31,137 nucleotides of DNA, from positions 1-31,137 of the IMG/VR virus record IMGVR_UViG_3300035680_000060; one strand, written 5' to 3'. This stretch comes from a virus. This document shows, piece after piece, positions 829 through 23,425 of the stretch. Numbering within the stretch: the stretch's first letter is position 1; the number at the start of each line of letters is the position of its first letter. The position numbers were made by a program, and so were the translations under genes. The notes beneath the pieces are model-generated. The model made no database searches. It had not been told where the DNA came from and worked only from the letters and a program-made list of their open reading frames with translations.

Positions 829-1601
829 TGCCACGCAAGAAGAAGGAAATCATCGACGTTGTCCCGCACGTTGGAATTACGCAGCAGTCTGCGCTTGATC
901 AGCAACTGGACGTGATTCGGATTGCCGAGCAGGAAGTGGTGTCACGTTGGCAAGTCATGGCGATTGCCACCAAGACGATTCACAGACAGCGCCTGTGGGA
1001 ATTGAACTACGAATCGTTTGAGCACTGCATGTCGGAAGCCCTTGGTTGGAAGAAGTCATGGGCCTACGAGATGCTCAAGGCTGCGGACGTGCTTGAAGAC
1101 GCGCCAATCACCGACGCGAGCATGGCCCGGTATCTGCACCCACTTGAAGGCGCCAAGCGTCTCACGGCATGGCAGTCTGCTGTCGAGTCTGCGCAACCGG
1201 AGAAGCCGACCCGGGATGACGTGAAGAAGGCGGCGGCACTGCTGCGTGGTGGCGAGGCAACCCCGAAGGAAGAGCCCGAAGAGGGCGAGAAGGAGTCCGG
1301 CGCGCCGGACCAGGCACCAACACCATCCATTGTCCCGTCTGGCGAGGAGTTTGACCGCATCGTTGCCATGCTTCGTGAAGCGCGCAACGCAATCGAGGAA
1401 CTTGCCGAGAAGCCGGCCGGCGCGTTTGTGACGACTGCGCAGATCATTGTTGACCTCAAGAACGTCTTCAATGCCCTGACGTGGGCCAAGCCGCATTGCG
1501 TCTGCGTGTACTGCGAAGGAGAGGGCTGCAAGCATTGCCAAGGCCATGGTTGGATGTGCAAGGGTCTGTACGCATCTGCACCGGAGGATCTGAAGCAATG
1601 A
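828..1601 (+). CDS. Unknown protein with C-terminal DnaJ-like cysteine cluster
   Basis: 257 residues; not recognised by name. The basic start (PRKKK) is followed by a helical region. Residues near 65-85 (SFEHCMSEALGWKKSWAYEMLKA) resemble the 'short helix plus SxxYAY' segments of plasmid and phage DNA-binding proteins, so DNA binding is a guess. The middle (about 125-165) is a charged Pro/Glu-rich linker that also carries one copy of the 16-bp palindrome, read as SGAPD. The C-terminus has cysteines at 224, 226, 229, 234, 237 and 244 in a CxxC-GxG spacing like one DnaJ zinc-finger repeat, probably binding one zinc. It lies between recT-like and helicase genes and overlaps both neighbours by a few bases, so a role in DNA replication or its regulation is inferred from context only. 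Confidence 0.7.
   Translation: MPRKKKEIIDVVPHVGITQQSALDQQLDVIRIAEQEVVSRWQVMAIATKTIHRQRLWELNYESFEHCMSEALGWKKSWAYEMLKAADVLEDAPITDASMARYLHPLEGAKRLTAWQSAVESAQPEKPTRDDVKKAAALLRGGEATPKEEPEEGEKESGAPDQAPTPSIVPSGEEFDRIVAMLREARNAIEELAEKPAGAFVTTAQIIVDLKNVFNALTWAKPHCVCVYCEGEGCKHCQGHGWMCKGLYASAPEDLKQ
1295..1310. repeat. 16-bp palindrome GTCCGGCGCGCCGGAC, copy 1
   Basis: Exact 16-bp palindrome inside the gene at 828-1601, read there as SGAPD. One of five exact copies in the window. Confidence 0.95.
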
Positions 1602-1837
1602 CGTGGCGAGACAAACTGGCACAGAAGGCCAATGGCATGCTCCCCGCAGGCGAGTACGGCATGTACCTCAAGCGTGAATTGCTAGAGATTGTGGCCGAAC
1701 TTGACCGCCTCACCGCCGAGCGAGACGAGGCGAGGCGGGAGGTGTGTGTGTGGCAGGGATTGGACACGGGCAATACGCCACGCGACACCGCAACGGTGCG
1801 GGGATGGAATTGCTTTCCACAGGAGGACGGCAAGTGA
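1598..1837 (+). CDS. Small coiled-coil protein, unknown function
   Basis: 79 residues, starting MTWRDKLAQKANG. The ATG at 1598 overlaps the preceding TGA (ATGA), which is why this start is preferred over a longer upstream reading. The first half is helical with a likely coiled coil (KRELLEIVAELDRLTAERDEAR). The C-terminal third is short and probably unstructured. Its last codons contain the strong Shine-Dalgarno AGGAGG (1821-1826) for the helicase gene that overlaps its stop. Phage operons often carry such short helical proteins of unknown role; no function can be assigned. Confidence 0.6.
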   Translation: MTWRDKLAQKANGMLPAGEYGMYLKRELLEIVAELDRLTAERDEARREVCVWQGLDTGNTPRDTATVRGWNCFPQEDGK

Positions 1838-3465
1838 ATCTTCGACCATACCAACATGACGCAGTGAAGGGAGTGCAATCCGCCCTGACCGGGAAGAAGT
1901 CAGCATTGGTGGTCATGCCAACCGGAACTGGCAAGACCGTGTGCTTTGCCCATATCGCCAAGCAGGCCGTCTCACGGGTCATGGTGATTGCGCACCGCGA
2001 AGAGTTGGTACAGCAAGCGGCTGACAAGATCCGGTCGGTTACTGGGATGTCGCCGGATATTGAGATGGCGGAGTACAAGGCAGGCCGGATGTACAAGGCG
2101 CCTGTGGTTGTGGCGAGTGTGCAAACCCTGTGCGCTCCATGGGGCGACGTTCACCGCATGATGAAGTTCAACCCGGATGAGTTCGACATGCTCGTGATCG
2201 ACGAGGCTCACCATGCAACCGCCGATTCATATCGGCGGATCATTGCGCACTTCTCGCGCAATCAACGGCTGCGAACCGTTGGGTTCACGGCGACTCCCGA
2301 CCGAGCCGACAAGGCCGCGCTTGGCATGGTGTTCGATTCGGTTGCGTTCCAGTACGAGATCCTCACCGCAATGAGTGATGGATGGCTTGTGCCAATTGAA
2401 ACACAGCAAGTCATCGTCAAGGATCTCGATTTCAGCCACGTCAAGACCATCGCCGGCGATTTGAACCAGGGTGAACTGGCAACGATCATGCAACAGGAGA
2501 AGGTTCTGCATGGCGTCGTAAGCCCAACCATTGAGATTGCGGGCAAGCGCAAGACACTTGTGTTTGCGTCAAGCGTTGCGCATGCGGAGCGCATGGCCGA
2601 GATCTTCAACCGCCATGGCGTGACTGCGGCAGTTGTGCATGGCGGGACGTTCAAGGATGAGCGACGCCGGATCCTTCAGGCATACGCCGACGGGAAGATT
2701 CAAGTGCTTTGCAACTGCGGTGTTGCTGTTGAGGGATTTGATTGCCCGGGAATTGAAGTCGTCGTCATTGCGCGGCCAACCAAGTCGCGCGCCCTATACA
2801 CGCAGATGGTCGGACGTGGCACCCGTGTCCTTCCAAACGTGGTAGATGGTCTGTCTGACGGATCGGCACGGCGGGCTGCGATTGCGGCAAGCAAGAAGCC
2901 GCGCATGCTTGTGATCGATTTCACTGGCAACAGTGGTCGGCACAAACTGGTCACGGCGGCGGACATCCTTGGCGGGAAGTACGACGATGACATGATTGCG
3001 GAGGCCAAGAAGCGCATTGCCGAGGCTGGCAAGCCGGCCGACGTGATTGCGGAACTGGAGAAGGCCGCAGAAGAAGTGCTTGCCAAGCGTCGTGAAGAAG
3101 CGTTGCAGAAGAAGCGCAACGTAGTCACTGCGCGCGTTGACTATGCGACCAAGAGTGTCGATGCATTCGGCATTCTCAACATCGGCCCAGAACGTATTGC
3201 CCATGCCGCCAAGAACACCGCACCAATGTCGCACGCACAGCAGGCCATGCTTGCACGCAACGGCATTGACATCACGGGATTGCCTGTCGCGCATTGCCGT
3301 GCCCTGTACAACGAGATCCTTCGCCGGATCAAGTCTGGTCGCTGCTCATACAAGCAGGCGAGTCTGTTGCGCAAGTATGGCTATGGAACGAATGTGAGTT
3401 TCCGCGAAGCGTCACGGATCATTGACGAACTCAAGTCCAACGGATGGAAGAAAGCGAGCGCATGA
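1834..3465 (+). CDS. SF2 DEAH-box DNA/RNA helicase
   Basis: 543 residues from a GTG at 1834, chosen because AGGAGG lies 7 bases upstream and the GTG overlaps the preceding TGA. The GTG at 1744 would run far into the upstream gene. All superfamily 2 helicase signatures are visible: an NLRPYQ Q-motif-like start, Walker A MPTGTGKT with Lys34, Walker B DEAH at 123-126, motif III GFTATP, a second RecA lobe with LVFASSVAHAERM, and motif VI QMVGRGTR at 324-331 with the arginine finger. The C-terminal 100 or so residues hold a small helical domain (AQQAMLARNG..., then QASLLRKYGY) common in phage-type SF2 helicases. It should be an ATP-dependent duplex-unwinding or remodelling enzyme serving phage replication or recombination alongside the RecT-like, primase-like and RusA-like proteins. 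Confidence 0.92.
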   Translation: MNLRPYQHDAVKGVQSALTGKKSALVVMPTGTGKTVCFAHIAKQAVSRVMVIAHREELVQQAADKIRSVTGMSPDIEMAEYKAGRMYKAPVVVASVQTLCAPWGDVHRMMKFNPDEFDMLVIDEAHHATADSYRRIIAHFSRNQRLRTVGFTATPDRADKAALGMVFDSVAFQYEILTAMSDGWLVPIETQQVIVKDLDFSHVKTIAGDLNQGELATIMQQEKVLHGVVSPTIEIAGKRKTLVFASSVAHAERMAEIFNRHGVTAAVVHGGTFKDERRRILQAYADGKIQVLCNCGVAVEGFDCPGIEVVVIARPTKSRALYTQMVGRGTRVLPNVVDGLSDGSARRAAIAASKKPRMLVIDFTGNSGRHKLVTAADILGGKYDDDMIAEAKKRIAEAGKPADVIAELEKAAEEVLAKRREEALQKKRNVVTARVDYATKSVDAFGILNIGPERIAHAAKNTAPMSHAQQAMLARNGIDITGLPVAHCRALYNEILRRIKSGRCSYKQASLLRKYGYGTNVSFREASRIIDELKSNGWKKASA

Positions 3466-3845: not shown

Positions 3846-3859
3846 CAGAAGGGACTGCA

Positions 3860-4702
3860 ATGTCAACATGGAACCGAGTGACACGGGCAAAGCCATGCCC
3901 TGTGTGTGGCAAGCCCGACTGGTGTTTGTTGTCGGCTGACGGATCAGCCTGTATTTGCCCACGAACCGAGAACAAGCACTTCATTGAAGGCAGCGGATAT
4001 CTCCACGTCCTCAAGGACACCGAGTGGTCGAAGGAGCAATGGACTCCCGCAAAGAAGGAGTTGCCTGAACACAACGAAGTCATGGCAACCATGGCTCGCA
4101 AGTTCTACATCGCATGTGATGAAGAGCAGCAAGTCGATGCTGATGAGCGCCTTGGCGTAAGCCATGGAAGCCTGCGCCGGCTTGGCATGGGATGGTGTGC
4201 ATCACAATCAGCGAATACGTTTCCTATGTTCCGCCACGAGCGCCGGCTCGTAGGCATCCGCATGCGCGGCAAGGATGGTCGCAAGTGGGCCATCAAGGGC
4301 AGCAAGCAGGGCTTGTTCATTCCTCGCGGGCTTGACGAACACAAGGTAGTGTTCATCTGTGAGGGTCCGACCGATACCGCAGCGATGCTTGATCTTGGGT
4401 TCAATGCCATTGGCCGTCCGTCGTGCATGGGAGCAACCGATTTGATTTGTGAGTTCGTTGCCGGCCGCAACGCGGTCGCAATCATGGCGGATAGAGACGG
4501 CCCAGGCATGGACGGCGCCGAGCGTCTTGCTCACTCACTTCGATCAATTGTCGGCAAGGTGTTGGTGATGTCGCCGCCGGACGGCCACAAGGATGTCCGG
4601 GCTTGGTATTGTGGCGGTCAGTTGCGCAAGGAAGACGCACTCGATTACATCAAGGCCGAATCATGCCGACATGGAAATGCACGATCCCGGGCTACGATCT
4701 GA
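3860..4702 (+). CDS. Zinc-ribbon and TOPRIM domain primase-like protein
   Basis: 280 residues. The ATG at 3860 has GAAGGGA about 8 bases upstream. The N-terminus carries a zinc-ribbon-like cluster (C13, C16, C22, C31, C33), as in phage primases that recognise a template sequence. The middle binds no recognisable cofactor. A TOPRIM fold follows: VFICEGPTDTAA with catalytic Glu168, then MADRDGPGMDGA with Asp211 and Asp213, the acidic metal-binding set of DnaG/T7-type primases. No helicase domain is fused, unlike T7 gp4; the separate upstream DEAH protein is not a DnaB-type replicative helicase. It likely makes RNA primers for phage DNA synthesis, with the caveat that some TOPRIM proteins of this type have lost activity. 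The next gene starts 40 bases inside its 3' end. Confidence 0.86.
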   Translation: MSTWNRVTRAKPCPVCGKPDWCLLSADGSACICPRTENKHFIEGSGYLHVLKDTEWSKEQWTPAKKELPEHNEVMATMARKFYIACDEEQQVDADERLGVSHGSLRRLGMGWCASQSANTFPMFRHERRLVGIRMRGKDGRKWAIKGSKQGLFIPRGLDEHKVVFICEGPTDTAAMLDLGFNAIGRPSCMGATDLICEFVAGRNAVAIMADRDGPGMDGAERLAHSLRSIVGKVLVMSPPDGHKDVRAWYCGGQLRKEDALDYIKAESCRHGNARSRATI

Positions 4703-5121
4703 TCTCACCGAACAAGTTGCTGCGCATGAAGTGGTTCATGCAGTCCAAGGAGAAGGACCGAGCCATGAGTTTGATCGCTGTCTATGGCAGGCCAATTCCG
4801 CAATATCACGTTCCGGTGGCAATGGCAATCGTCAGGAAGTACGGTAAGCGCCAGCGCAAACTGGACACCGACAACCTGTATGGTGGATGCAAGTTGCTTG
4901 TTGATGCGATGAAGGCACCGAAGGGTCGGTCGAAGCGCGGCTTGTCCATCCTGATGGATGACGATCCGCGATCGCTTGATCTGTGGGTCACGCAGGCCAA
5001 GAACACCGAAGATTCCTGCGATATCGAAATTTATGCATGTCCGGCGACAGAGTCGCTTGACCTTCCTGATGATGTCGCTATGATGTTCAGGCAGTCCCCA
5101 GTAGACCGCACGGCGCGTTGA
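4663..5121 (+). CDS. RusA-like Holliday junction resolvase
   Basis: 152 residues from an ATG at 4663, in frame and overlapping the primase-like gene by 40 bases; a TTG-type upstream start is possible but unneeded. The diagnostic RusA pattern is visible: RKLDTDNLYGG with Asp68 and Asp70, then LMDDDPRSLDL with acidic residues 99-101. These correspond to the three metal-binding aspartates of E. coli RusA. The protein is somewhat longer than the roughly 120-residue E. coli enzyme, with extra residues at both ends. RusA enzymes cut four-way DNA junctions as homodimers; in a phage this resolves recombination and replication intermediates before packaging, fitting the RecT-like partner upstream. It is the last gene of the + operon, and the terminator stem begins inside its final codons. 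Confidence 0.85.
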   Translation: MPTWKCTIPGYDLISPNKLLRMKWFMQSKEKDRAMSLIAVYGRPIPQYHVPVAMAIVRKYGKRQRKLDTDNLYGGCKLLVDAMKAPKGRSKRGLSILMDDDPRSLDLWVTQAKNTEDSCDIEIYACPATESLDLPDDVAMMFRQSPVDRTAR

Positions 5122-5148
5122 GCCATCCGCGCGCCGTGCGGATTTTTA
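5106..5148 (+). terminator. Rho-independent terminator of the + strand operon
   Basis: Perfect 12-bp GC-rich arms, CCGCACGGCGCG (5106-5117) and CGCGCCGTGCGG (5130-5141), with a 12-base loop, followed at once by ATTTTTAT. The left arm lies in the last codons of the RusA-like gene. Only the + direction has the T-run, so this stops the replication operon before it runs into the opposing virion operon. Confidence 0.9.
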
Positions 5149-5150
5149 TT

Positions 5151-5366
5151 CCAGTACTCCCGCTGTCGCATGCGGCCTGCACTCCGGTGCAATGCGACTT
5201 CCCACTCGCGGAGCGGTAGCGAGATCACCATGACGCTGTGGCCGGCGACGACGCACTACCACAGAGTTTGTCCGGCGCGCCGGACTCGTCATGGCAGGCA
5301 GGGTGCAACGACCGGATGCCTGACCCAAACACCGATTGCCCGACCTCGCAAGGGGTCGGTACGTCT
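5151..5366. other. Gene-free convergent junction
   Basis: About 215 bases between the ends of the two facing operons. It holds one copy of the 16-bp palindrome (5270-5285) and a short inverted repeat CCGACC/GGTCGG (5340-5345 and 5354-5359, 8-base loop) just beyond the stop of the last - strand gene. That stem has no good T-run on the - strand, so it is at best a weak terminator. No supported gene or tRNA is visible. Short Arg-rich open frames here lack ribosome sites and look like GC-driven noise. Confidence 0.6.
5270..5285. repeat. 16-bp palindrome, copy 2
   Basis: Exact copy of GTCCGGCGCGCCGGAC in the non-coding junction between the two convergent operons. Confidence 0.95.
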
Positions 5367-5609
5367 TCAGGATGATGCGAGGTAAGCGCCCACCTTGCGA
5401 CCGCCTGCGTCCTCTGTCTGGGATTGCACTGCCGGCCTGCTGCCAAGCCGCATGGCGCGCTCGGTGGGCGTCAGTTCAAACCACAGCACGGCCATGGCCT
5501 CAACCACGTCGATGCTCTTGACGCCGTTCTGGACGCCGTCTGCGGCCAGTCTGGCGTATGTCTCTTCTCTGATCCGAACTGATGCCGTCACTGGCTTCTT
5601 TGGGTTCAT
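5367..5609 (-). CDS. Small ribbon-helix-helix-like protein
   Basis: 80 residues. Its ATG overlaps the stop of the giant gene (ATGA), so it is probably translated by coupling. The N-terminal segment (VTASVRIREETYARLAADG, then a helix around SIDVVEAMAVLWF) has the strand-helix-helix pattern of CopG/Arc-type ribbon-helix-helix DNA-binding proteins, which dimerise and bind short palindromes. The C-terminal 30 residues look disordered. It is the last gene of the - operon and lies close to palindrome copy 2, so autoregulation or binding of that palindrome is conceivable but unproven. It could equally be a helical virion protein. Confidence 0.55.
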   Translation of the reverse strand: MNPKKPVTASVRIREETYARLAADGVQNGVKSIDVVEAMAVLWFELTPTERAMRLGSRPAVQSQTEDAGGRKVGAYLASS

Positions 5610-8600
5610 TCGTCTCCAAGCCCTTCTGCGTCTGCGATTCGACGCGCCACGACACCAGACTCGACATCGATTCGCCGCGCCAACTGGGGCATCTGGCGGG
5701 ACTGCATCTTGTTCTTGGCGCGCCGCTCGATGTCGCCCATGTTCATGCTAGCCATGGGGTACATCGAGTTGAAGGTCCGGAGCACCTTCTGAGCCGTGGC
5801 TCGATCGCCAACCGCCAGGTAGGTCGCAGCCTCGTTGGCATACCGATCCACCTCGTTGCGAATAATACGCAGCCTCTGATACTCCATTGACCATACGGTT
5901 TCGCTGACGGTGCGGAACGCCATGGCGCGCAGGAACTGTTCCTCGGGATCCAACTTGTACTTCAGCCGGCCGCGAGCGTCGTATTCCTCGTTGCTGCCAG
6001 AGAACAACTTCCAAAGGGACGTGATCTGCTGCGCGGCAGGGCTGCTGTCGAGCAAGCCTCGGCCAAGGCGCTCGCCCGCACCCATGGGCACAGCCGTCTC
6101 TGCGGTCAAGTTGGTCATCAACTGGATGGCCGTATTGACCGTCGGGCCAGCCACGGTGGCGCCGATCTTCTCGTAGATGTTGCGGCCGAACGGCTTCTGC
6201 CAGATCGAGATCGAGCCGGACAGGTCAATACCAAGCGCAGCCGGCAGGCCCATCATGGCAACGTCGGCCATGCGCTCGGAGCCAAGTTCGCTCTTGAGCC
6301 ACGCACGCAACTTGTAGTTGAGATCGTCTGCGCCTTCCTTGTCGCCAAGGTAGAGCGATCGAATCAGGCTGGCAGCAGACAGGCCAATCGACGCCTGCAA
6401 ACCGCCAAGCATGCTCATGGTTGCCATGTACCTGGCGACACCAGAGTAGTTGCCCTTCTGGAACTCATTGACAAGCAGGCCAGTCGTGTTGATTGCAAAC
6501 CGGCGGTACTGCAACGTGGTCGATGCGATCGGTCCACGCAGCAGCCACGGGATATTGGCCTTCGTGTAATAGAACTGGGTGTACACGTTGCCGTACACGC
6601 GGCCATATCGGACAGCCTCGGTGTCATCCATGCCAAGGCGGTACTTGGCGTGGTGGTACATCGCAACGAACGCGAAGTTCTGGTTTCGTGCTTCCGACGA
6701 TGGATTGAAGTTCTCGTTGGTCGAACGGTAGATCTTGTCGTTCATCGTGGACACGAAGTCCATGATCTCGCCACCGATCGCGCCCTCATCGCCCTCGCGG
6801 AATCGCGCCGATCCATCGAAGAACCCGTGCTTGCGAAGCACCAACTTGCCTTCATCGCTGTTGTAGAAGGCAACGGCTTCCATCATGCCTTGTTCGCCAA
6901 GGATGGGGTAAATCGTCTGAAGCGGCTGGAACGAGTTGACCACTTGCTGCCGAACCGTGAGCAACTGGCGGGCATAGTTCAACGCGCGAATCGAGCCAAG
7001 CCATCGCCTCGTCGGGAACGGAGACACGATCTTGCCGAAGATCGGGATCGCTCGGATCATCGAGTCAATTGCAGCCTCGGTCATGGTCGGCGCGGTAAAC
7101 AACGTGTGCCGCATGCTCTCCGCGAGATAGTCACCCCAACCCGGGGTGTTGCGACGGATGGACTCGATGCGGGGAGTCAACTTCCGCACCATGTCTCCAC
7201 CCATGCGCCAACGGTTATGCAGCCGTTCGCTCATGTTCCACACGGCCATGAAGTCCGTGACGAACCCGCCGGCGCCGGTGCGCTCCATCAACGGTGCATA
7301 GAACGGACGCTTGCTTGTCTTGCTGGCAACGATGCCACGCATGGCGTCTGATACCTCATCGCGGTATGCGCCAGTCGCGTCGGCAAGCATCTTCTCCAGC
7401 CGGCGCCGCTGCGCATCCGACAGACGTACCGCATCATCGGGATCGATGCGGACCGCCGGCTCGGCAACCAACCGCTGGTACACGCCAGGGTTGGCGCGCT
7501 TGAATGCATACAACTTCTCGTATGCCTCTGGCTCGGTGATGGCGCTTCCAAGGATGGTTCGAGTTCCATCAGCCGCATAGCCAATCAACTTGAAGTCGCC
7601 GTTGAACCAGTGGAAGAAATGCGCATACTGGCGACCCCAGTTGTCTGGGATCATGGTTTCCACGAGCGCCTCGCGCGCTTGGTCAATGGTGATCATGCCT
7701 TCCGGCGTCTGGATCATCTTGCGACCACGTTCGTTGCGCACAACCTCCCACGTCAGCCCATACTGGGAGGCGCGGGTCACCAATCGCGAGGAGTTGTCGC
7801 GCTTGAGCATCGCACGGATGCTGTCCCGCTTGGTGTCAATGATCTCCTGGCGGCGGACCTCTTCCCGCTCCTTGAACCACTTGAGCGCGTTGCGCCACGC
7901 CTGAGACTTCGACTCGAACTCCTGATTCGTATCGATCGTCTCGGGCGGGTGGTACGCATCCATGTACCGCGAGAACTCTTCGCTGTCCCGCTCATCAGGC
8001 GGGATCGACTCCCAGACGGCATTGGCTTCTTCCTGACGGCTCTTGGTCGTCAGGTTCCGCTCGATGTCCATGTTGATCATGTCCTCGACCACGGAGATGA
8101 CCTCCGGGTTCTTGGACCCGATCGCAAGGTTGATCGGAGCAGCAATGAACTTCCAGAACGGCGAGATGTCCGCCGGCTCGGTGACGATGGAGATGTCGTC
8201 GGACTCCTCGACCGCAATTGCAGACGGCACGACCCGCGAAGCCAACTGGCGGGCGGTTCCCATCCATGCTCGGCCAAGCGCGCCAAGGCGGTCTTCAACC
8301 TCCGTCCGGACTCCACCGGACCGGACCGCCATGTTGATTACGGTGTCGGCGTCTGCGGCGCTGGCGGGTTCATAGGTTGAGGGTTCGTTCCGAAGGGCGA
8401 AGTCGAGGGGCTTTCTTGGCTCCTCTTGGACTCGGCCTCCTCGTCGAGCAGCATTTCGTCTGCCTCCTGCTGCGCGTCGAACGGATACCACGGATCTCCG
8501 CTGGGCATCGACTTGCTTGATGGCTGCATTGATATCGCTTTCTGGAATCTTGCGCGACCGGGCAAAGGCAATCGCGGCCTGCTCGTAGTCCGGGAGTCCG

Positions 8601-11600
8601 CCGGTTTCATACTGCATGCTCCCGTCGTCCTGCACCTTTGCCGTGTCGTACAGGCGCTTCTCAGGATACCAATACAACGCCTGCAAGTCAGCCATCGTCA
8701 GGGCGGGATTGGTCTTCTGGAGTTCAGTAAGAACGATTGCCATCACTCGGCGGATGCGGTTACGGGTCGCCGGATTTCTCGGGGTTTCAATCGAGCCGTC
8801 AAGCGTCTTGGTATGGGTGTTGGACTGCCGGCGAATCAAGTCTCCGCTTGGCAGGCGCTCCACAGCATCGCGGAACTCCTGCTTGCTCGATCGCCTTGCA
8901 ATCTTGCCGGCGATCTCGGTCAGGCGAGCATTGCTCATAGACGTATTCACGAACTTGACCAGGTCTTCGCCAATCTCCGACCCAATAAAGTCAAGCGTGC
9001 GCTTGCCTTGCTTGGTGGCCTTGCGACTGCCCTTGCGGCCTTCAGTCAAACCAAGCAACGAGTTCCGCAGTTCTTCGCGCTGAGATTCAGCCAATGCCCG
9101 GTTGTTCTCAACCAACAGACCAATCCAGCGTCCCCATGTCCGCATGAACCACCGGTCCATCGTCAATTGCTCGTACTTGCCGTTGAGGTTGGCGAAGAAC
9201 CCGTTCCCGATCTTGGGACCAAAGATTGCTGCGCCATACACCACTTGGTTGACCGATTCACCATTGACCCGCTTCCCGGTCATGTCAAAGATCTCGCGCA
9301 CCGTGTACATGGTGTTCGAGAAATTCATCACCCAATCAAAACCCTTCTTCTTGACAAGGTCGTTGAAGCGCGCAAACGACTCATTCATCACCTTGCCAGA
9401 CGTTCCGGTTCCAATGTTGGTCGGCAGTTTGCCAGTTCGCTTGTATGCGTCATACGCACGCGCCGCCAGCCTGAAGTTTTCAGACACCTCCATGGAGTTC
9501 GACGTGATGGCAAGCGCCATCTTCATCACGAACTGAGCGCGTTCGTCCGCGTTGAGTTCGGGATATACCAATGACATGATCGCAAGCGCCTTCTTGACCT
9601 TCTCGTCGTACCAGCCGACAGCATTGTTCTTCATGCCGAGGGCGTACTTGGCATCCGAAATAGCCACAGCAGTGATGTACTCGTCAATGACCGCACTATC
9701 GCGATCATGGACAGTCGTGTTGTTGCGAGTCGCGGCGTCGCGAACTTGCTTCTGAATCACCAACTTGAAGTCGCGAATGGACTTGAACTTCTGGCTTTGC
9801 GCAGCAGCAATTGAGTTCTCAACGCCTGCGGTGTCAATTACCTCTTGCGGAATGCGTCGGACCGAAAATTGCGGAAGCGCACCTGGCTGACTCTGCGCAT
9901 CGAGCACACGATCTTCGGGATACGCATCCCACTGTGCAAAATACCTCAGACGCGGATCAACATTCCATGTTGAACTTATGCGAGCAAAGAGTTCCCGCCC
10001 CGTCAGCAAATCAGTTGGAGCGGGGATATATGGGCCACTCGTCGGAAAAGATGGAAGTCGGGTTTGTCTAACTTCGCGCAACGGAACTGCTTCAACTTGC
10101 TGAGTCGAAGTCCGGACTCTACGAATGGCTCGATCCCCAAGTGGGATTCCGCCAAGGTCGTTGTTTGTGGCTGTACGCGCTAGAGCAGTGACATTGCCCT
10201 CCATAATGTCGGGCACAATTGCTGAAAGTCTGTCAAATGCTGTTTCTTCTCCCTGGAGAGGGAGAGAGGCAAACCCAAAGACTCGCGAAACAATGTCTTT
10301 GAACAATTCCCATGCATTTGAGAACGACTCAAAGGCCGCAGTCTTGGGGAGTTTGATTGACTTGAGATAGTCAACCATATCTTGGTTGCTAAATGCTTGT
10401 GCAACAAACTCATCAAGATTGGCCATCCCATACGACACGCTCCGCGCGGCAGATGGATTACGGGCAGCAAGTTCGTCATATCCACGGAAAGTAGTTGGCA
10501 GATCCAATTGTGCCGCAGCCCATCGGCCATAGTTGAAACTATTGCCGTCGTTCCCGGCACCGCTGACATACAACCAAAGTTGGCAGAGATCTCGGACCGC
10601 TACTCCGCGCCTAGTTGTTGGCACGGTTCGTGCAAAAGCCGCAACTCTTGCGACGTATTCTGGCCCCCGAGCATATGACACACTAATCCCCAACGTGTCT
10701 TCTATTGCATTGGCAGTGACTGCATGAAGCGCCTCATGGACGAACGTCTCAACCGACTGAAGCCGAGTATTCAACGACCCGACGTATTCATGCTGCTGCG
10801 GCGAATAGTGTTGCCGAAGCAACCCTGCAAGCGATGCTTCGTCTACAAATCTGACTTTGATGCCCAATGACTCCAACTGACCACTCAGATACGCTGCCAA
10901 CTCACCATACCGATTGTCTGACCGAGAATTGTTTTGAACCAGGCGCAAATACTCGCTAGGTTGCATAAATCCAGCACCAACGTAATCCCAGACGAATTTA
11001 TACGTCTCTGGGGAGTTGGGATACTTGAGTGTCTGGGTTGTGGTGTCAATTTGTGGGAGACTCAATCCAACTCTGTTGATTCCCGATTGCTGACTGGATT
11101 CAAAACTACGAATCGAAAAGTTGATGTTTTCGCCAATTGATTCCAACTTTGCACGCGCAACCGCTGCTTCATCAAATGCTGGCTCACCATCATTGAGCGT
11201 GGCAAGCATGTTGTAGAAATTGCTCATCATCAATGCGCGAGTGCGCACCGCGTCAGCAATATCCTTCTGCAACATGCGCTGAACAGCCGGATCCATGAAT
11301 GGATACCCGCGACCAAGTTGCACCGCCTGAAGCGCAGCAAGCGCATCACCCGACTTTGCAAACTCAGAGAACTGCTGCGCGAGATCACGCAACACACGCG
11401 AGATGTTCGGGCGTTCTTCAGACGACGCTGTCGTTTCGAGCATTAGGCTAGTCAGGTTTACCGCCGCCGGGTTGTAGCCATAGCGCAAACCACTGAACAG
11501 CGCACCAGCCAAATAACGCCTGATCTGTTGTAGTCGCTCAGTTGGTTCAGACAACAACTGCGCTTCGGCATAATTCCGAGCAAATGCCGTGAGCGCGCCG

Positions 11601-14600: not shown

Positions 14601-17149
14601 CGCTCAAACTTGGCCCGCAACTCAGCCTCTGCGTTTCGTTCACGACGCGCCGACACAACTTCCGGCGCAGCCTGTGCGCGCTCGGCTGCGGTCGCCGCAC
14701 GTCCTGGTTCGCGCGCGCGGACGGCTTCGACAAACTGCCGATCCTCCAGCCGACGGATGCGCTCTTCGACGGTTGCGTCGGCAGATACCGGCATTGCTGC
14801 CTGCTGCTCTGCCTCCTGCATGACCTGAGACACAATCCGCGCCTTGCGCGGGCTGACGCCAGCAGTGACGCGCGCAACCTCTTCAGTAGTCAGCCCGTTG
14901 AGTTCGGCAATGATCTGTGCTTCCGCACCGCGCCGCTGGTTGTCGATCTTCTCCTGAAGACGACGCGGATCCATGTCAGCCTGCTGAGTTTCAACAGCAC
15001 GCTTGATCTCCGCGTGCAGTTCGTCGCGCTGGGCGCGAGAACCGAAATCAAAGTAACCAAGCGCCTTGTCTTGTGGATCAAGCAACGAATCCGCCATCCG
15101 GCGAGAAATGAACTCTGCATTGGCAAGGCGTGATGCAAGCACTGGATTGGCCTGCACGAATGCATCAACAGCATCAGCAGTTGTTTCGCCCTTCTGACGC
15201 GAAAGCATGCCATCCACGCCTGTAATGCTTAGCATGGTGGCCGCGCCAGTTTGGACTTGCTCTTGCGTCCGGCCGCTCATCAGATTGCGCCGGACCATCT
15301 CGTCCGCAGCCATTGCCGGCGTGACAACAAACTGCATCGAGCCAAACTTGCCAACACCACGGGTGGTGCCACGAAGCGTGGCAGTGACTGCGCCGTCATT
15401 GTTTCCACGCAGGATGATGTCCTGGAGCGCCTGCGTCTCAATGCCATCCATGTTCAGTGCGGCACCAAGCGTGCGCATCTGCTTGTTGTCGGTGGCATTG
15501 TCAATCGCCAACTTCGCTTGGTTCTTGACGAACCACTTCATCACCGTATCTACGTCGTTGGTATTGAGATCACCGCGCTCCATGAGCCGGCGAACCTGTG
15601 AGTTCTCCGGAAGCCGGCCAATGACTCGGTCGAGTTGCGCCGCCGTTGCTGCCGCGCCGTTGCGCGTCGAGATGCCCGTGATCACGCCAGCAGGAACGCC
15701 AACGAGTGCGCCAACCAGGCCGGCATATGCGGCGTTGCTAAAGACATCCGTGACCCAACCAGGGTTATCTTCGTAGAACTTCTTGAACTCCGGCTGATCA
15801 AGCCGATACATATTGACCGCAAAGTCGGTCAACGCCTGATCGGCAAACTCCTGAACGCCTTCCGCAACCATGCCACGAGTTGCGCCACGCGACACTGCCT
15901 GCGCTGTGGTCAATCCAGCAGCGCGTCGAATGGCATTGGTCGTCATCTCATCGAACTGGACGCCAACACCAAACGGCTTCAAGACCTTGCCGACAATGGC
16001 TTCGGTCACGAACGTGGATGCAAAGGCCGTGACTGCATCACGGTTCGCATTAGCCGACGCCGCCGTGGCCGAAAGCCCAGCCTCCATGCCAGTGCGCATG
16101 GATTCTTCCCACTGCGACGCAGCAGCCTGTCCTGCACCGGTTGCGGCAAATGTGGCAAGTTGCGCGCCGGCTGATGCCCCGCCAGTAAGTGCGGCAGCGC
16201 CAAACTGCGCAAGCAACTGAGGCACAGTTTCAATTGCATCAAGGGCCAACTGCTTGACGGCGCCATTGTTTCGAGCGCCAGCGCCAGTCATTGAGATGAA
16301 TCGAGCGGTTTCTGCTGCCGCGCGCAGGCGATCTGCTCCGTATTGCCCATCAGAAAAGTACGCAACCGCCCCAGCAGGCATATCTACCAACAGCCGTTCC
16401 GGAAGTGTCAACACACGCATGCCGCCACGACTGAATGCCTCAGCGGCTTGCTTCAAGAATCCAGCGTCTTCGCCCGGGAATCTCTGCTCGTTGAAGTACT
16501 GGGCAACTTCAGGAAGGTCTTCGCCAGTACGCGCTGCACGAGCAAGATTGCGCCTCTCCATGACGCGCTCTGCTTCTGGGTCGTTCTTGTAACCAAGGGG
16601 GATACCAGCAAGGCTTCCTGCAACCACACCTTGCATGGACTCCATGTCCTGCATGCCCTGGATCTGCTGCGTCATTGTCTGACGCGGTGCCATCTCCTCC
16701 AATTCCTGGAGAGTCGGCGCGCCGCGCTTCGCGGCTTCCTCAGCCAGATACTCTTCCCGGCGCTGCTCCATGCCTCCAGTTGCCTGGTCCCACAGGAGTG
16801 CTGCATTGGAATCAACAGCCCGGCCACTAAACCGGAACTCATCCTCACGAAGACCTGGCTCGATCGACGGAGTGAAGTCAGGCTCCTGCGGTTGCATGCC
16901 TTGCTGGAACTGCGCAAACTCATCCGGAGACATCAGCCCCTGCATGCCAAGCGATGCCTGCGGGAACCTGGTGGCTTCAAGCCGTGCCATGTCCTCTTGT
17001 GGCGCCGCCGGCTCCGACATGGGATCAAACCCATATGAGCCGGCATTGGTCATGGCCGTCTCATCGGGAGCGAGTGGGTACTCGCTGAACTGCATGTCTT
17101 GGGTGGTGTCGAACTGGTCTTCCGGAAGGAACGATCCGAATTGGGTCAT
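5606..17149 (-). CDS. Giant polyvalent virion-type protein with two metallopeptidase-like and one kinase-like domain
   Basis: 3847 residues in one uninterrupted frame. Residues 1-600 are Gln/Ala-rich with hydrophobic stretches near 304-340 and 472-494, as in internal or ejection proteins. A charged coiled coil spans about 1040-1150. A zinc-peptidase-like HETVH is at 1261-1265. A HipA-like kinase pattern spans about 1590-1780 (Lys1619, NE at 1663-1664, SDANNSN with Asp1737, FDLGG with Asp1751). A second HEALH is at 2138-2142, with a possible third ligand in NLDEF (Glu2247). Residues about 2500-2680 (GWYDEK..., FGPKIGNGF, TMDRWFMRTWG) resemble a domain shared by large phage proteins. The last 450 or so residues (LQYRRFAINTTGLLVNEF) look like the C-terminal domain of phage polyvalent proteins (LPD38-like; from memory). 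Such proteins are thought to be packaged and injected with DNA to act on the host. Start: ATG at 17149, 8 bases after the upstream stop, weak ribosome site. Confidence 0.88.
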   Translation of the reverse strand: MTQFGSFLPEDQFDTTQDMQFSEYPLAPDETAMTNAGSYGFDPMSEPAAPQEDMARLEATRFPQASLGMQGLMSPDEFAQFQQGMQPQEPDFTPSIEPGLREDEFRFSGRAVDSNAALLWDQATGGMEQRREEYLAEEAAKRGAPTLQELEEMAPRQTMTQQIQGMQDMESMQGVVAGSLAGIPLGYKNDPEAERVMERRNLARAARTGEDLPEVAQYFNEQRFPGEDAGFLKQAAEAFSRGGMRVLTLPERLLVDMPAGAVAYFSDGQYGADRLRAAAETARFISMTGAGARNNGAVKQLALDAIETVPQLLAQFGAAALTGGASAGAQLATFAATGAGQAAASQWEESMRTGMEAGLSATAASANANRDAVTAFASTFVTEAIVGKVLKPFGVGVQFDEMTTNAIRRAAGLTTAQAVSRGATRGMVAEGVQEFADQALTDFAVNMYRLDQPEFKKFYEDNPGWVTDVFSNAAYAGLVGALVGVPAGVITGISTRNGAAATAAQLDRVIGRLPENSQVRRLMERGDLNTNDVDTVMKWFVKNQAKLAIDNATDNKQMRTLGAALNMDGIETQALQDIILRGNNDGAVTATLRGTTRGVGKFGSMQFVVTPAMAADEMVRRNLMSGRTQEQVQTGAATMLSITGVDGMLSRQKGETTADAVDAFVQANPVLASRLANAEFISRRMADSLLDPQDKALGYFDFGSRAQRDELHAEIKRAVETQQADMDPRRLQEKIDNQRRGAEAQIIAELNGLTTEEVARVTAGVSPRKARIVSQVMQEAEQQAAMPVSADATVEERIRRLEDRQFVEAVRAREPGRAATAAERAQAAPEVVSARRERNAEAELRAKFERDLAAAVDVAWAKRQVEFYNEAREAAITEGPIDEQAALDLLTAVELPANAEFADLSRAYVESRMREAGATDEDVADVREAARRRAKTLEEDFRRSAREEAIGILDEAEQQAKNADPNYIISMPDAVEILMNEASDDTKQDIADVLASGRSLGLLFLEAMDLPEASTGDVNAAELRLRGMLDNIRRTREVTSREPSRVPGIAEVRAERDAALVEEQQRVDAELADLRKQKAMLEAERQPLLEEAWMTKPKGKKPAQRRKKRAPMTDAEQAIVNRMREVEEKIAALEKDQASILEQRGIVSQAMPEPEAVDATATFPNQDTGRKRRLIEEARQQIADINDIDINDVKMRYADGKTTLTKQEKRFVNFGKKLGITVVFVQTPGNSTMAGAYKNGVVFLSAQDINRPSAMFAIAMHETVHYLHESNPELFRGLYNALNKRVPRALRELRKSYTARLDQVSRVNAVRRAGLIMLNDENESSRDAVLWVARNDDSPEAALLRANMPDQLAAALDDQDLSSLTTPTDDVAAEYRKEFKKRFTSGLRAPLSESQLQQEEIANLAELVMDGAFVTIVGDDGKINIDEVRRLADTKPTISRFAALASAIMDAFAIIPGMTKKARGLNDAQVAALRKFADKPGELASPRLRNVAQQLIAQSLVKMMDAKRGNIPAGEIGASPMSDELAGARIPALDFSIRLAVPDDGRSALFAGKDRELPAVDPATPSRISKESLDFAIRAIASDDNPTELKVRNNLVTGRRGATIGGFADTEDGRRWYIKHLVGRIPSQDSEVLQRALSGTQDERDAAIRRIQFRGVQKYHLQNELAANLMAESLGMPGVMPIRGFFVTTGGQVRDVQASEVRPDFQTLSGSNQSGENIPWETVMKSAGVSSILAVSDANNSNITTQGNVFDLGGSLGVPAFAPEADSIPFVSLQVQFRSARDDDTTSENAAQLSAIVNNRELIANLYEDRNTVVNGLDPRFTAEMAHTADFGPVINKDQNLLPISRYFANGALTAFARNYAEAQLLSEPTERLQQIRRYLAGALFSGLRYGYNPAAVNLTSLMLETTASSEERPNISRVLRDLAQQFSEFAKSGDALAALQAVQLGRGYPFMDPAVQRMLQKDIADAVRTRALMMSNFYNMLATLNDGEPAFDEAAVARAKLESIGENINFSIRSFESSQQSGINRVGLSLPQIDTTTQTLKYPNSPETYKFVWDYVGAGFMQPSEYLRLVQNNSRSDNRYGELAAYLSGQLESLGIKVRFVDEASLAGLLRQHYSPQQHEYVGSLNTRLQSVETFVHEALHAVTANAIEDTLGISVSYARGPEYVARVAAFARTVPTTRRGVAVRDLCQLWLYVSGAGNDGNSFNYGRWAAAQLDLPTTFRGYDELAARNPSAARSVSYGMANLDEFVAQAFSNQDMVDYLKSIKLPKTAAFESFSNAWELFKDIVSRVFGFASLPLQGEETAFDRLSAIVPDIMEGNVTALARTATNNDLGGIPLGDRAIRRVRTSTQQVEAVPLREVRQTRLPSFPTSGPYIPAPTDLLTGRELFARISSTWNVDPRLRYFAQWDAYPEDRVLDAQSQPGALPQFSVRRIPQEVIDTAGVENSIAAAQSQKFKSIRDFKLVIQKQVRDAATRNNTTVHDRDSAVIDEYITAVAISDAKYALGMKNNAVGWYDEKVKKALAIMSLVYPELNADERAQFVMKMALAITSNSMEVSENFRLAARAYDAYKRTGKLPTNIGTGTSGKVMNESFARFNDLVKKKGFDWVMNFSNTMYTVREIFDMTGKRVNGESVNQVVYGAAIFGPKIGNGFFANLNGKYEQLTMDRWFMRTWGRWIGLLVENNRALAESQREELRNSLLGLTEGRKGSRKATKQGKRTLDFIGSEIGEDLVKFVNTSMSNARLTEIAGKIARRSSKQEFRDAVERLPSGDLIRRQSNTHTKTLDGSIETPRNPATRNRIRRVMAIVLTELQKTNPALTMADLQALYWYPEKRLYDTAKVQDDGSMQYETGGLPDYEQAAIAFARSRKIPESDINAAIKQVDAQRRSVVSVRRAAGGRRNAARRGGRVQEEPRKPLDFALRNEPSTYEPASAADADTVINMAVRSGGVRTEVEDRLGALGRAWMGTARQLASRVVPSAIAVEESDDISIVTEPADISPFWKFIAAPINLAIGSKNPEVISVVEDMINMDIERNLTTKSRQEEANAVWESIPPDERDSEEFSRYMDAYHPPETIDTNQEFESKSQAWRNALKWFKEREEVRRQEIIDTKRDSIRAMLKRDNSSRLVTRASQYGLTWEVVRNERGRKMIQTPEGMITIDQAREALVETMIPDNWGRQYAHFFHWFNGDFKLIGYAADGTRTILGSAITEPEAYEKLYAFKRANPGVYQRLVAEPAVRIDPDDAVRLSDAQRRRLEKMLADATGAYRDEVSDAMRGIVASKTSKRPFYAPLMERTGAGGFVTDFMAVWNMSERLHNRWRMGGDMVRKLTPRIESIRRNTPGWGDYLAESMRHTLFTAPTMTEAAIDSMIRAIPIFGKIVSPFPTRRWLGSIRALNYARQLLTVRQQVVNSFQPLQTIYPILGEQGMMEAVAFYNSDEGKLVLRKHGFFDGSARFREGDEGAIGGEIMDFVSTMNDKIYRSTNENFNPSSEARNQNFAFVAMYHHAKYRLGMDDTEAVRYGRVYGNVYTQFYYTKANIPWLLRGPIASTTLQYRRFAINTTGLLVNEFQKGNYSGVARYMATMSMLGGLQASIGLSAASLIRSLYLGDKEGADDLNYKLRAWLKSELGSERMADVAMMGLPAALGIDLSGSISIWQKPFGRNIYEKIGATVAGPTVNTAIQLMTNLTAETAVPMGAGERLGRGLLDSSPAAQQITSLWKLFSGSNEEYDARGRLKYKLDPEEQFLRAMAFRTVSETVWSMEYQRLRIIRNEVDRYANEAATYLAVGDRATAQKVLRTFNSMYPMASMNMGDIERRAKNKMQSRQMPQLARRIDVESGVVARRIADAEGLGDE
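13207..13222. repeat. 16-bp palindrome, copy 3
   Basis: Exact copy inside the giant gene, extending to an 18-bp palindrome with flanking A and T. On the - strand it is read as VRRAGL, a different frame from copies 1 and 4, so protein-level selection does not explain the repeat. Confidence 0.95.
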
Positions 17150-17157
17150 GGATGTTC

Positions 17158-19626
17158 TCAGTCTGCGGCGAGCGTAAACCCGCCAAGGTTCGGGCTAGTC
17201 AACATGCGCACAAGCATTTCTTGCCGCGCGGCCAACGGAAGATACCCGAAGACATCGTCGATATAGGAAGTTGCTGCTTTGACGCCAGCGTTCTGGCCGG
17301 CCGTATTCGACCCAAGGCCAATGCGCTTGTTCGGCTCCTCCATCATGGTCTTGATTCGAGGGTCGTTGCGGTCGAACTTGAACGGGACAGCCCGCCCGCC
17401 AATGTCGATGGCAAACGGCTTACCGCTGGTCAGGAGCGCAAGCGCCGACGTGGCGACTTGCTTTGGATCTGCTCCGCGCGACTGAACCATGGGGAGAACC
17501 GCCTGCGATCCACCCTCCGATACGCGGACGCCGGGATACTCGCGGGCTCCAACCCGCACCGACGGGCGACCGCCACGCAGCGACACGGTGTATCCCGTCC
17601 TCGCCTCGTTGAGCAGCCGCTCGTTCCGGACCTTGAACTCGGTCGTCCCGCGCTTGGTGAAGTAGTCCTGTCGCGCCTGGGCCATTTCCTGGGCCGCTGC
17701 GTCCTCGCCAAACGCGGGGGGCTTGGGCTTGTTGACCATGATGATTTCGTCACCACGCTTGCCAACCCATTCTGGAGCCTGCTTGCCGCCGGCGGGATAT
17801 CGCTCGGCTGCAACCGCAACCATCTGCTTGTTGACGGCATCTTCCCACTGGCCCTTGGCATCAATTCCAGCGGCGCGTTCCCCGGTTCCAGTTCGACCAA
17901 GGCTCTGCCATGCGTACTGCCCACCAGCGCCAAGCGGGACATTGAGTTCCTTGGCAGCGCGAGCCTGTGCCTCTTGCAGCATGTTGTTGTACTCAGCCTG
18001 CTGTTCTTCGTACTCCTTGGTTGCCTTGAGGCGCGGTTCCCCACGCTTCTGCGCCTCCTGCTGAATCGCAAAATCCTGCGCTTCCGGCGTTTCTGCGGCG
18101 GCGCCAGTCAGGCCAGCAACCTCCCCTTCCTTGCGCTTTGGCTCACGCATTTCGCCACGAGAATAAGCACCCTCAAGGATGTACAGCGATCCAGGCGGCA
18201 GCATGTCCAACTCGGCAGGGCTCGATGGCACTGCTACGGCCCGCCCATTGAAGTCCCACGCGCGCATCGGAACCGGGTTTGCCGGATCATCTGGATTCGG
18301 GATCAACGCAACCAAGGCACCATTGGAGGCTTGCTGGAAGTCAATTGGCGAACCAGGCTCGATGGCGATGTCGCGCATCATGGTTGAGTCCGGCGCGCCG
18401 GACTGGGGGGCACGCGGTGTGGGCGCGGCCCCAGCAGTCGGCGCTCCAGACGGCGGCTGCGATGGAGCAAGACCACCGCCCGCTTGTGCTGGGGCAGGAC
18501 GCGCCATTCCGGACGCGGCCATCTGCTGATTGAAGAGTTCCTGCGCGCGAGCGCGAACCTTGGATTCATCAACACGCGCATACGGGTCAGTCTGGAGTTC
18601 CGTCTGCGCACGCTTGTATGCATCTGCATACACCTTTGCAGACTGCTGCTGGCGCTGCCGCTCAAGCCGCTCCTGAACTGCAAGCGACTGGCGGTTCTCG
18701 CGCTCCTGCTCTGCCTGTTGTTCCGCCTGCTGACGACGCCGCCCAGCCATGCGAGCACTTGGGTTGCCCATGGCGGACCACATCATCTCATCCTGCTGCC
18801 GTCGCAACCTGGCCTTCGCTTCCTCCCGCTGGCGAGGGGACAAGGCGAGATCAGCAATAGTGGCCTCCATGATTTGGTCAATTCGCTGGAAATCGCGCGA
18901 CACCTTGTCAGTGCCAGAACTCAAGACCTCAAGAATGTTCGCTCGCGTGCCCTCATCAAGCGCGCGGGAGTACTCCTGCAGCGACATGCCATCAGAGGTC
19001 GGAAGCGCATAGCCAGTAATTGGGTCTTCAACAAACGGCATGATGGCACCGCCAGCACCTTGCATCATCGGACCCTGCCTGTTTCCAACCATCTGCGGGC
19101 CACCGCCCATTGCACCCATTGCAGCAGTTGGCTGCGGAGCCTGCCCAGCGCGCCAAGTGCTCTTGTCTGGCACACCCGGCACATTCGCATCCATGGTGGG
19201 CTGTGCCGGCGTCTGTGTTGGAGCCTGCGGGAGCGAAGTCTGCCCACGGAACTCGCCCGATTGCACTCGCCCACGCATCTGACGGAACGCATCAGTCGCA
19301 GCCTGACGCGCTTCAGCAGGGCTTGCACCCGCCTCCTCCGCCTGCTGTCGAGCCTCAACAGCGGCGTCGCCCGCGCGTGAGCGTGCGCCAGGAATATTGA
19401 CCGACTCGCGTTGAGCCTGAACTCGTGCGCGATTCTGGGCAAAGTCACCACCAGTCATCATCGGCTGACGCATCGCCGGCGCAGGAGTCTGCGGAACCGC
19501 TGCCGGCTGCTGTGCAGGCGTTGGCGGCTTCGGTAGATCTACCGGCTCGCCATAGGCATTCGTCGTCGGAAGACCGGTGAGGTCAATCGGCGGGAGTTCT
19601 TCGACATCAGACGCTCGGAGTGCCAT
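17158..19626 (-). CDS. Putative internal virion protein, Gln/Ala/Pro-rich
   Basis: 822 residues from the ATG at 19626, chosen because AGGAAGGA lies about 8 bases upstream; an ATG at 19650 would add eight residues. The N-terminal 170 residues are Pro/Gln/Ala-rich and low-complexity. A helical, probably coiled-coil segment rich in Gln, Arg and Glu (RRRQQAEQQAEQERENRQ and around) covers about residues 290-370. A second Pro/Ala-rich linker near 400-420 carries palindrome copy 4. The C-terminal 250 residues are more regular and end GGFTLAAD. No enzymatic motif is recognised. Composition and position directly upstream of the giant gene suggest an ejected or internal core protein partnering it, as T7-like phages encode several such proteins in a row. 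Inference only. Confidence 0.78.
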   Translation of the reverse strand: MALRASDVEELPPIDLTGLPTTNAYGEPVDLPKPPTPAQQPAAVPQTPAPAMRQPMMTGGDFAQNRARVQAQRESVNIPGARSRAGDAAVEARQQAEEAGASPAEARQAATDAFRQMRGRVQSGEFRGQTSLPQAPTQTPAQPTMDANVPGVPDKSTWRAGQAPQPTAAMGAMGGGPQMVGNRQGPMMQGAGGAIMPFVEDPITGYALPTSDGMSLQEYSRALDEGTRANILEVLSSGTDKVSRDFQRIDQIMEATIADLALSPRQREEAKARLRRQQDEMMWSAMGNPSARMAGRRRQQAEQQAEQERENRQSLAVQERLERQRQQQSAKVYADAYKRAQTELQTDPYARVDESKVRARAQELFNQQMAASGMARPAPAQAGGGLAPSQPPSGAPTAGAAPTPRAPQSGAPDSTMMRDIAIEPGSPIDFQQASNGALVALIPNPDDPANPVPMRAWDFNGRAVAVPSSPAELDMLPPGSLYILEGAYSRGEMREPKRKEGEVAGLTGAAAETPEAQDFAIQQEAQKRGEPRLKATKEYEEQQAEYNNMLQEAQARAAKELNVPLGAGGQYAWQSLGRTGTGERAAGIDAKGQWEDAVNKQMVAVAAERYPAGGKQAPEWVGKRGDEIIMVNKPKPPAFGEDAAAQEMAQARQDYFTKRGTTEFKVRNERLLNEARTGYTVSLRGGRPSVRVGAREYPGVRVSEGGSQAVLPMVQSRGADPKQVATSALALLTSGKPFAIDIGGRAVPFKFDRNDPRIKTMMEEPNKRIGLGSNTAGQNAGVKAATSYIDDVFGYLPLAARQEMLVRMLTSPNLGGFTLAAD
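18388..18403. repeat. 16-bp palindrome, copy 4
   Basis: Exact copy (18 bp with flanking A/T) inside the 822-residue gene, in a Pro/Ala/Gln-rich linker, read on the - strand as SGAPD. Confidence 0.95.
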
Positions 19627-21402: not shown

Positions 21403-21408
21403 GTTTAG

Positions 21409-21951: not shown

Positions 21952-21955
21952 GGCA

Positions 21956-22711: not shown

Positions 22712-22713
22712 GA

Positions 22714-22968: not shown

Positions 22969-23396
22969 TAGGCGTTCGACCCTGCAAGCCGGAACGACAC
23001 AGCCACGCCGACGTATGGCTGTGTCTTGTTGGAATTGACCTCGACGCTTTCAACAAAGCCGGAGAGAGTCTTGGATGCCGTCGCGTTGCCATACGCCATG
23101 ACAATGGCGTTGCCCGTTCCGGAATCCTCGGAGATGCACGTCGCAAGGGTAAGCGCGCTTGACGCGGTCATGTAGCCAGTGACAAGAAGGCGCCCCTCTA
23201 CCAGGTTCGTCTTTGCCAGTCGGCGCGTAGTGTCTACGCCGGCCGTCACGTCCTGAATGTCTGCCTGCACCTGAAGACGGAATCCAATCACGTCAATGCT
23301 CATCACCGGCAGCACCGAAGTGTTGCCGCTGAGGCTGCTGCCGGAATACGTCACCGTCAGCGGATTGACTGACGGCTTTGCCAATGCTTCTGGCAT
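22968..23396 (-). CDS. Small beta-rich virion protein
   Basis: 142 residues, Ser/Thr/Val-rich, predicted mostly beta, no cysteine pattern or signal peptide. The start at 23396 has a strong ribosome site (TAGGAGGT) immediately downstream of palindrome copy 5, so its translation could be affected by that stem. Position between adaptor-type and tail-type genes suggests a neck or decoration component. Not recognised by name. Confidence 0.68.
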   Translation of the reverse strand: MPEALAKPSVNPLTVTYSGSSLSGNTSVLPVMSIDVIGFRLQVQADIQDVTAGVDTTRRLAKTNLVEGRLLVTGYMTASSALTLATCISEDSGTGNAIVMAYGNATASKTLSGFVESVEVNSNKTQPYVGVAVSFRLAGSNA

Positions 23397-23409
23397 GGCC
23401 TACCTCCTA

Positions 23410-23425
23410 GTCCGGCGCGCCGGAC
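23410..23425. repeat. 16-bp palindrome, copy 5, next to a ribosome-binding site
   Basis: Exact copy (18 bp with flanking A/T) in the 31-base gap between two - strand structural genes. In the transcript it would fold as a 6-bp stem with a CGCG loop, two bases after the upstream TAA and directly before TAGGAGGT, the Shine-Dalgarno of the gene at 22968-23396. Confidence 0.95.

Follow-up and report, generated by a model that had tools for sequence, protein, structure and literature searches.

Few phages are known to have cognate sites dispersed over the whole genome that diverge together with the protein reading them, and the main examples are stoperators. In the cluster A mycobacteriophages the stoperator motif and the repressor diverge together (PMC6550527, PMC9283540). 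ParB and Noc bind 16-bp sites, which for Noc are scattered round the chromosome (PMC8429893, PMC4331003), and the DNA-binding specificity of these proteins can be switched by few residues (PMC7383237). The locus compared with these systems here is the whole of the linear virus record IMGVR_UViG_3300035680_000060 (31,137 bp; the window), which holds five exact copies of a 16-bp palindrome, at 1295, 5270, 13207, 18388 and 23410. From their sequence and distribution, the palindromes are probably dispersed binding sites for a phage-encoded, sequence-specific dimeric helix-turn-helix (HTH) protein that may act genome-wide.

Conservation of the palindrome as DNA

An earlier sequence-only reading of the window had reported the five copies, their reading frames and the extension of three of them to 18 bp (AGTCC...GGACT); all of this was confirmed. 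It had also proposed a count of one-mismatch variants, and allowing from one up to three mismatches adds no copy in the window. Markov models of orders 1–3, with the sites masked, predict 4e-5 to 6e-5 exact copies. Shuffled versions of the window contain a mean of 0.48 copies when up to three mismatches are allowed, and 0 of 100 shuffles reach five. Reading outward from each arm, 8 of the 10 window arms carry an A just beyond the 16-mer, so the palindrome very nearly reaches 18 bp, its outermost pair being soft.

The 16-mer was sought in 2.9 million viral contigs, which yielded 58 stretches. About half come from phages with genes for relatives of the window proteins; most of the remainder are lone hits in GC-rich contigs. 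The family consists of tailed phages with TerL, a portal (assigned by position and conservation), a major head protein and a giant protein of 3.2–4.0 thousand amino acids (aa). Members referred to below are 3300032269_000372 (G001), 3300012017_000270 (G002), 3300044522_000230 (G003), 3300043772_001757 (G004, nearly identical to the window), 3300034190_001954 (G005), 3300000116_000048 (G006) and 3300030117_002802 (G030). Relatives carry five to eight palindromes per contig at syntenic places: seven exact copies and one with a single mismatch in a 43.5-kb contig, six exact copies in one of 32.6 kb and 48% GC, and seven exact or near copies in one of 43.8 kb. Masked Markov models predict 6e-5 to 2e-4 exact copies in G001, where seven are observed, and 4e-6 to 7e-6 in G003, where there are six. 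Site density is about 7–8 per 44-kb genome, with a spacing of about 4–8 kb.

The copies occupy matching gene positions in the relatives. S1 (1295–1310), an exact copy, lies in the linker of the HTH gene and reads ESGAPD, and the same place is occupied in G001 and G002. S3 (13207–13222) lies within the giant gene and reads VRRAGL, and S4 (18388–18403) reads QSGAPD in the linker of an 830-aa gene. The copies at 5270 and 23410 are outside convincing protein genes: S2 (5270–5285) is part of a conserved noncoding element between convergent operons, and S5 (23410–23425) sits in a 31-bp intergenic gap and is also exact in G001, G002 and G003. Two intergenic copies and three genic ones in two frames had been described from the window, and this division stands, the frames being those of SGAPD and VRRAGL. 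S6, found in the gene that separates those of portal and head protein, is not in the window, whose linker there reads PKKEDERDAG. G004 has two additional copies outside the part it shares with the window: S7, in the TerS-like gene preceding TerL, and S8, about 700 bp past S7.

Identical codons, intergenic copies and the use of two reading frames show that the selected object is the DNA, the frame being what the protein tolerates. In most genic copies the reading is (K/E/Q)SGAPD, and the copy lies in a hydrophilic linker with diverged surroundings; every SGAPD copy is spelled TCC GGC GCG CCG GAC. The product of codon fractions for these codons is 7e-4 to 6.5e-3 per copy; in G003 (48% GC), with five such copies, it is 7e-4 for each. 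No synonymous variant of an SGAPD copy occurs in any of the genomes compared, and the variants in G002 (SGATD, SGGTD, SGVPD) are all nonsynonymous. The remaining copies, intergenic or in the VRRAGL frame, are exact. Selection on the peptide, which the earlier reading had already discounted, can thus be rejected. The genes illustrate one way for coding sequence to retain a binding site: the SGAPD frame is used, and the site is housed in protein linkers that tolerate it.

The variant palindromes of G002 (L103–L105) occur as identical pairs: GTCCGGCGGGACGGAC twice, GTCCGGCACGCCGGAC twice and GTCCGTCGCGCCGGAC twice, at 267/8849, 21309/43348 and 26734/38408. The pairs hint at copying between sites or at a very restricted set of tolerated changes.

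Comparison of the relatives reveals three clade-specific dialects of the site, each with two-fold symmetry: GTCCGG-CGCG-CCGGAC; [T/G]TCCGG-AATT-CCGGA[A/C]; and GTCGCGTC-N-GACGCGAC, which was found de novo in two genomes. TCCGG-N4-CCGGA occurs six times in G005, where other spacers from 0 to 10 yield none or one, and no other 5-mer dyad of the genome is as significant; its N4 varies around AATT and the outer pair is mostly T...A. Three more TCCGG dyads are present in L188 and two in L191, where one copy, GTCCGGAATTCCGGAC, lies about 45–60 bp upstream of the start of the HTH gene. G006 and G030 have none. De novo ranking places GTCGCG-N4/5-CGCGAC first in G006, which has three copies and one with a mismatch, and among the top four in G030, which has GTCGCGTCCGACGCGAC twice; the other phages checked lack this dyad apart from single partial matches. 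A scan of the 2.9 million contigs for GTCGCGTCNGACGCGAC found 32 stretches, of which 13 (about nine contigs) carry family genes; the remaining stretches hold one copy each and come mostly from GC-rich contigs that lack such genes.

In L221 and L231 the gene preceding TerL carries the GTCGCG dialect in its linker, the S7 place, which reads KSRPTR or VSRPTR there and KSGAPD in the window clade. In L220 it appears in the HTH-gene linker at residue 142; S1 of the window is at residue 156. Since these copies sit in the S1 and S7 linkers, some site positions have been kept while the spelling changed.

Two further repeats were encountered. Upstream of the TerS-like gene of G005 (L111, positions ~10–130), beside a TCCGG dyad, are four copies of a CACAGC-N3-GCTGTG inverted repeat, possibly a second binding-site array. 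Another palindrome, CCTGCCACGTGGCAGG, occurs twice in G009, and one of its copies resembles a terminator.

The candidate reader

The proposed reader of the sites is a predicted 257-aa HTH protein with a C-terminal CxxC/CxxC knuckle, encoded at 828–1601 on the plus strand. AlphaFold models a confident helical domain at residues ~20–140 (predicted local distance difference test scores of ~85–95 by block), in which helices 64–72 and 76–89 form the predicted HTH. S1 falls in the disordered linker of the model, which is followed by the CxxC-x4-CxxC knuckle. The gene lies just upstream of a helicase gene in all relatives that cover the region.

Dialect tracks the recognition helix of this protein and not the structural genes, a correlation across the genomes compared. 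Wherever the gene is available, the helix of TCCGG-dyad phages reads G[WY]KKSWAYE; that of GTCGCG-dyad phages reads GYGKQWAYK, with GYGRQWVYK as the L220 version. G007, which keeps only the C-terminal part of the protein, has neither dyad. The best argument for the 257-aa protein as reader comes from G005, whose dialect and helix are discordant with its other genes. Its TerL shares more with G006 (64.6%) than with the window clade (56.7%), and the same holds for its portal, 330-aa protein, primase, helicase, DUF6321 and TerS-like proteins, for some by just 1–3 points; G005 nonetheless shares both dialect and recognition helix with the window clade. Identification of the 257-aa protein or its orthologues as the reader, though correlational, is well supported.

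L195 (9566–10453) and L196 (9302–10186) encode at the HTH locus a protein with the same cysteine-knuckle C-terminus and a ParB_N-like N-terminal domain, whose Pfam matches (E=0.011 and 0.001, respectively) fall below the curated cut-off. An apparent swap of the DNA-binding half is suggested by these sequences.

Function of the sites and rival explanations

The sequence-only reading had suggested several origins for the palindrome. Its proposal of a protein-binding site, for a regulator, partition or packaging, has gained from the syntenic copies, the constraint on DNA and the dialects that track one HTH protein. The 257-aa protein is predicted to prefer GTCCGGCGCGCCGGAC over the GTCGCG dialect. 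In a dimer each subunit would recognise one arm (TCCGG or GTCGCG), in the manner of ParB/Noc-type proteins on 16-bp palindromes, and the cysteine knuckle could link the reader to a partner, most likely the adjacent helicase. Bound sites would then act genome-wide on the architecture, replication or segregation of phage DNA and not as a classical operator.

One site may have a local role as well. In relatives, S8 lies on the upstream side of the -35 box of the operon for early replication, to which the HTH gene belongs, an arrangement that would allow autoregulation. The gap between S8 and this box is 14 bp both in G001, where the promoter reads TTGACA-17-TATGCT, and in G002 (TTGCAC/TATGCT); in G004 it is 25 bp, longer by about one helical turn. 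The promoter beside S8 likely drives the early operon, including the HTH gene. A copy in G005 is about 41 bp upstream of a promoter matching 10 of 12 positions. Apart from these and the promoter of the S2 element, no promoter-like sequence better than 9 of 12 is found near other copies; since so few copies have one nearby, a purely local operator role is unlikely for most. At the type-B site of G006 at 40380, a TTGACA lies 13 bp away with no -10 box, and no promoter is claimed there.

Given such a reader, a role in DNA architecture, as a replication hub or in partition has about an even chance; stoperator-like silencing appears distinctly less likely, and roughly level with it stand all other roles, namely packaging, injection and recombination. 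Architecture, hub or partition is favoured over roadblocks, with low confidence, because of the symmetry of the sites, their low number, their position in genes, the helicase neighbour and the ParB_N-like counterpart. Tentatively, the sites and protein could form a docking system: spaced a few kilobases apart along the phage chromosome, the sites would be marked by a ParB-like HTH/cysteine-knuckle protein, which would bring in the neighbouring SF2 helicase or serve as an anchor for the DNA. Docking would organise replication, recombination or segregation, and sites and reader would switch specificity together between lineages.

Several observations weigh against dispersed sites for a dimeric HTH protein. 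A handful of related lineages underlies the association of helix and dialect. Searches with the HTH protein and its alignment against PDB, NCBIfam, Pfam and PHROG gave no informative family, and no curated DNA-binding family was reached; Foldseek against PDB returned nothing under E=0.4. An alignment of profiles keeps the protein in register with ParB HTH domains for 67 columns, yet is not significant (P=0.12). PHROG and Pfam scans that covered part of the open reading frames of the window and G002 recognised neither a ParA-like nor an integrase gene. In G002, S2 retains its arms and has lost the 4-bp spacing, and S2 may persist as an RNA hairpin. Even spacing, finally, is only marginally significant among genomes that share ancestry: the P value for the largest gap is 0.006 in G001, the best case, and is not significant in G002. 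Because of this, and because the genomes are related, evenness is treated as suggestive.

Of the alternatives to this reading, stoperator-like silencing, in which the 257-aa protein or another phage protein on dispersed sites blocks transcription elongation for shut-off or immunity, survives best, although it is unlikely. The spread over the whole genome and a site upstream of an early promoter fit it, and motif and reader co-diverge as they do in cluster A phages (PMC6550527, PMC9283540). The sites here, however, are symmetric, few and mostly mid-gene, whereas known stoperators lack symmetry and mostly point along the direction of transcription, and no repressor or integrase family was recognised among the scanned proteins.

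A different reader, such as the TerS-like protein encoded before TerL, would make the palindromes packaging-related sites. S7 is conserved within the TerS-like gene in two dialects. In its TerS-like protein, however, G005 stands a little closer to G006 than to the window clade, the reverse of what dialect shows, and a genome normally has one packaging site or a few, not a set dispersed along its length as here; this explanation has little chance of being right. An AlphaFold model of the TerS-like protein was too poor to be informative.

It is quite improbable that the palindrome acts at the RNA level, as a transcript hairpin of the kind suggested around S2. A stable hairpin does form, S2 lies inside a covarying noncoding element, and G002 keeps the arms there while changing the loop length. 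Elsewhere, however, arms and centre are fixed and no compensatory arm changes occur; the sequence is identical in all genomes regardless of GC content, S8 is upstream of the early promoter, and the dialects switch with a helix of DNA-binding type.

The element around S2 is of interest in itself. Together with its promoter it spans 5057–5375 on the plus strand. S2 is contained in a conserved, structured portion of ~230 nucleotides downstream of the conserved promoter TTGACa-16-TATGAT. Eighteen pairs show compensated changes in four sequences, and wobble changes favour the plus strand. The fold of the window sequence alone is unremarkable (z = -1.15), and comparison of the region with Rfam, tRNA and tmRNA gave nothing. 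The element is possibly a new phage noncoding RNA at the point where two operons converge.

A palindrome iterated in the host, as HIP1 is in cyanobacteria, or a set of sites for a conserved host protein would suit an identical site in phages of 48–64% GC, but is very improbable: the dialect differs between close phage relatives and tracks a phage gene, and the exact 18-mer AGTCCGGCGCGCCGGACT, the only form sought, has just 38 matches in 84,980 species genomes, scattered, mostly GC-rich and with no family proteins nearby. The 18-mer is not over-represented in the genomes scanned, so the iterated host palindrome raised by the sequence-only reading was rejected; copies at aligned positions in relatives, which that reading had also regarded as decisive, are present, while the enriched host genome was not found, the host perhaps lying outside the genomes scanned. 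Loci fetched for AGTCCGGCGCGCCGGACT have a single core copy each, except L143, which has a second. In L145 (1–64), a contig of a Hyphomicrobiales metagenome-assembled genome, the 18-mer forms the middle of a more extended perfect inverted repeat close to the end of the contig, which may be a hairpin made in assembly. Nor did the suggested methylase or restriction site fare better: 16–17 bp is unusually long for one, and no methyltransferase or restriction gene is present among the annotated genes.

The phage family and known systems

Genes flanking that of the HTH protein encode a RecT-like single-stranded DNA annealing protein (64–828, plus strand), an operon neighbour whose 5' end may precede the window; the SF2 (ResIII/DEAD) helicase (1744–3465, plus strand), the conserved neighbour and possible partner of the HTH protein; and a Toprim-like DNA primase (3860–4702, plus strand). 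Besides RecT-like protein, SF2 helicase and primase, the family has a DUF7192 gene, a PD-(D/E)XK exonuclease and an AAA gene of the AAA_5 type. Over a third of the window is occupied by the gene for the 3847-aa giant protein (5606–17149), which has relatives of 3255–3974 aa and no Pfam or PHROG family match. An 87-aa DUF6321 protein (25983–26246) is strongly conserved throughout the family.

The window DNA, the HTH protein, the major head protein and the 160-aa portal end were compared with 50,697 phage records, and no cultured relative was found for any of them; only the helicase gave distant matches, and these were many. The palindrome also tags an uncultured phage family for which the phage records searched yielded no relative.

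By analogy, stoperators are the closest functional precedent. Like those of L5 and Bxb1, the sites described here are short, numerous and spread genome-wide, with one set near an early promoter, and we infer that a single protein reads them. Stoperators, however, are asymmetric 13-bp sites for a monomeric repressor, mostly oriented with transcription and numbering up to ~30 per genome, whereas the present sites are perfect palindromes, 7–8 per genome and mostly inside genes. The predicted HTH-plus-cysteine-knuckle protein is also unrelated to the stoperator repressor, and no lysogeny genes were recognised in the scanned proteins.

With parS and NBS the sites share the form of 16-bp palindromes and, in the case of Noc, a scattered distribution. 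Unlike ParB and Noc, the window protein and its HTH-type homologues have no ParB_N/CTPase domain, and no ParA was seen in the scanned proteins. Because the CTP domain is lacking and the similarity to ParB HTH domains is not significant, the system is best filed as one that would work like ParB/Noc and the stoperators without being a member of either group. In a viral structure library, matches to the predicted structure of the HTH protein include proteins named DUF3102 (E=7e-4). This likeness is confined to predicted structure: no member of the HTH-protein family matches the DUF3102 Pfam model (PF11300), and a DUF3102 search of 10 genomes found nothing.

Two further systems are close to this one. 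Prophage N15 has a dispersed centromere, and the KorB operators of the IncP plasmid RK2 are dispersed inverted-repeat operators of one ParB-like protein, which joins repression and partition. KorB has the ParB domain organisation and an SH3-like C-terminus (PMC5016525), unlike the cysteine knuckle and helicase neighbour seen here. To these systems the present family contributes a perfectly palindromic version of dispersed cognate sites, and its three natural dialects, matched to versions of one protein, make specificity and function directly testable.

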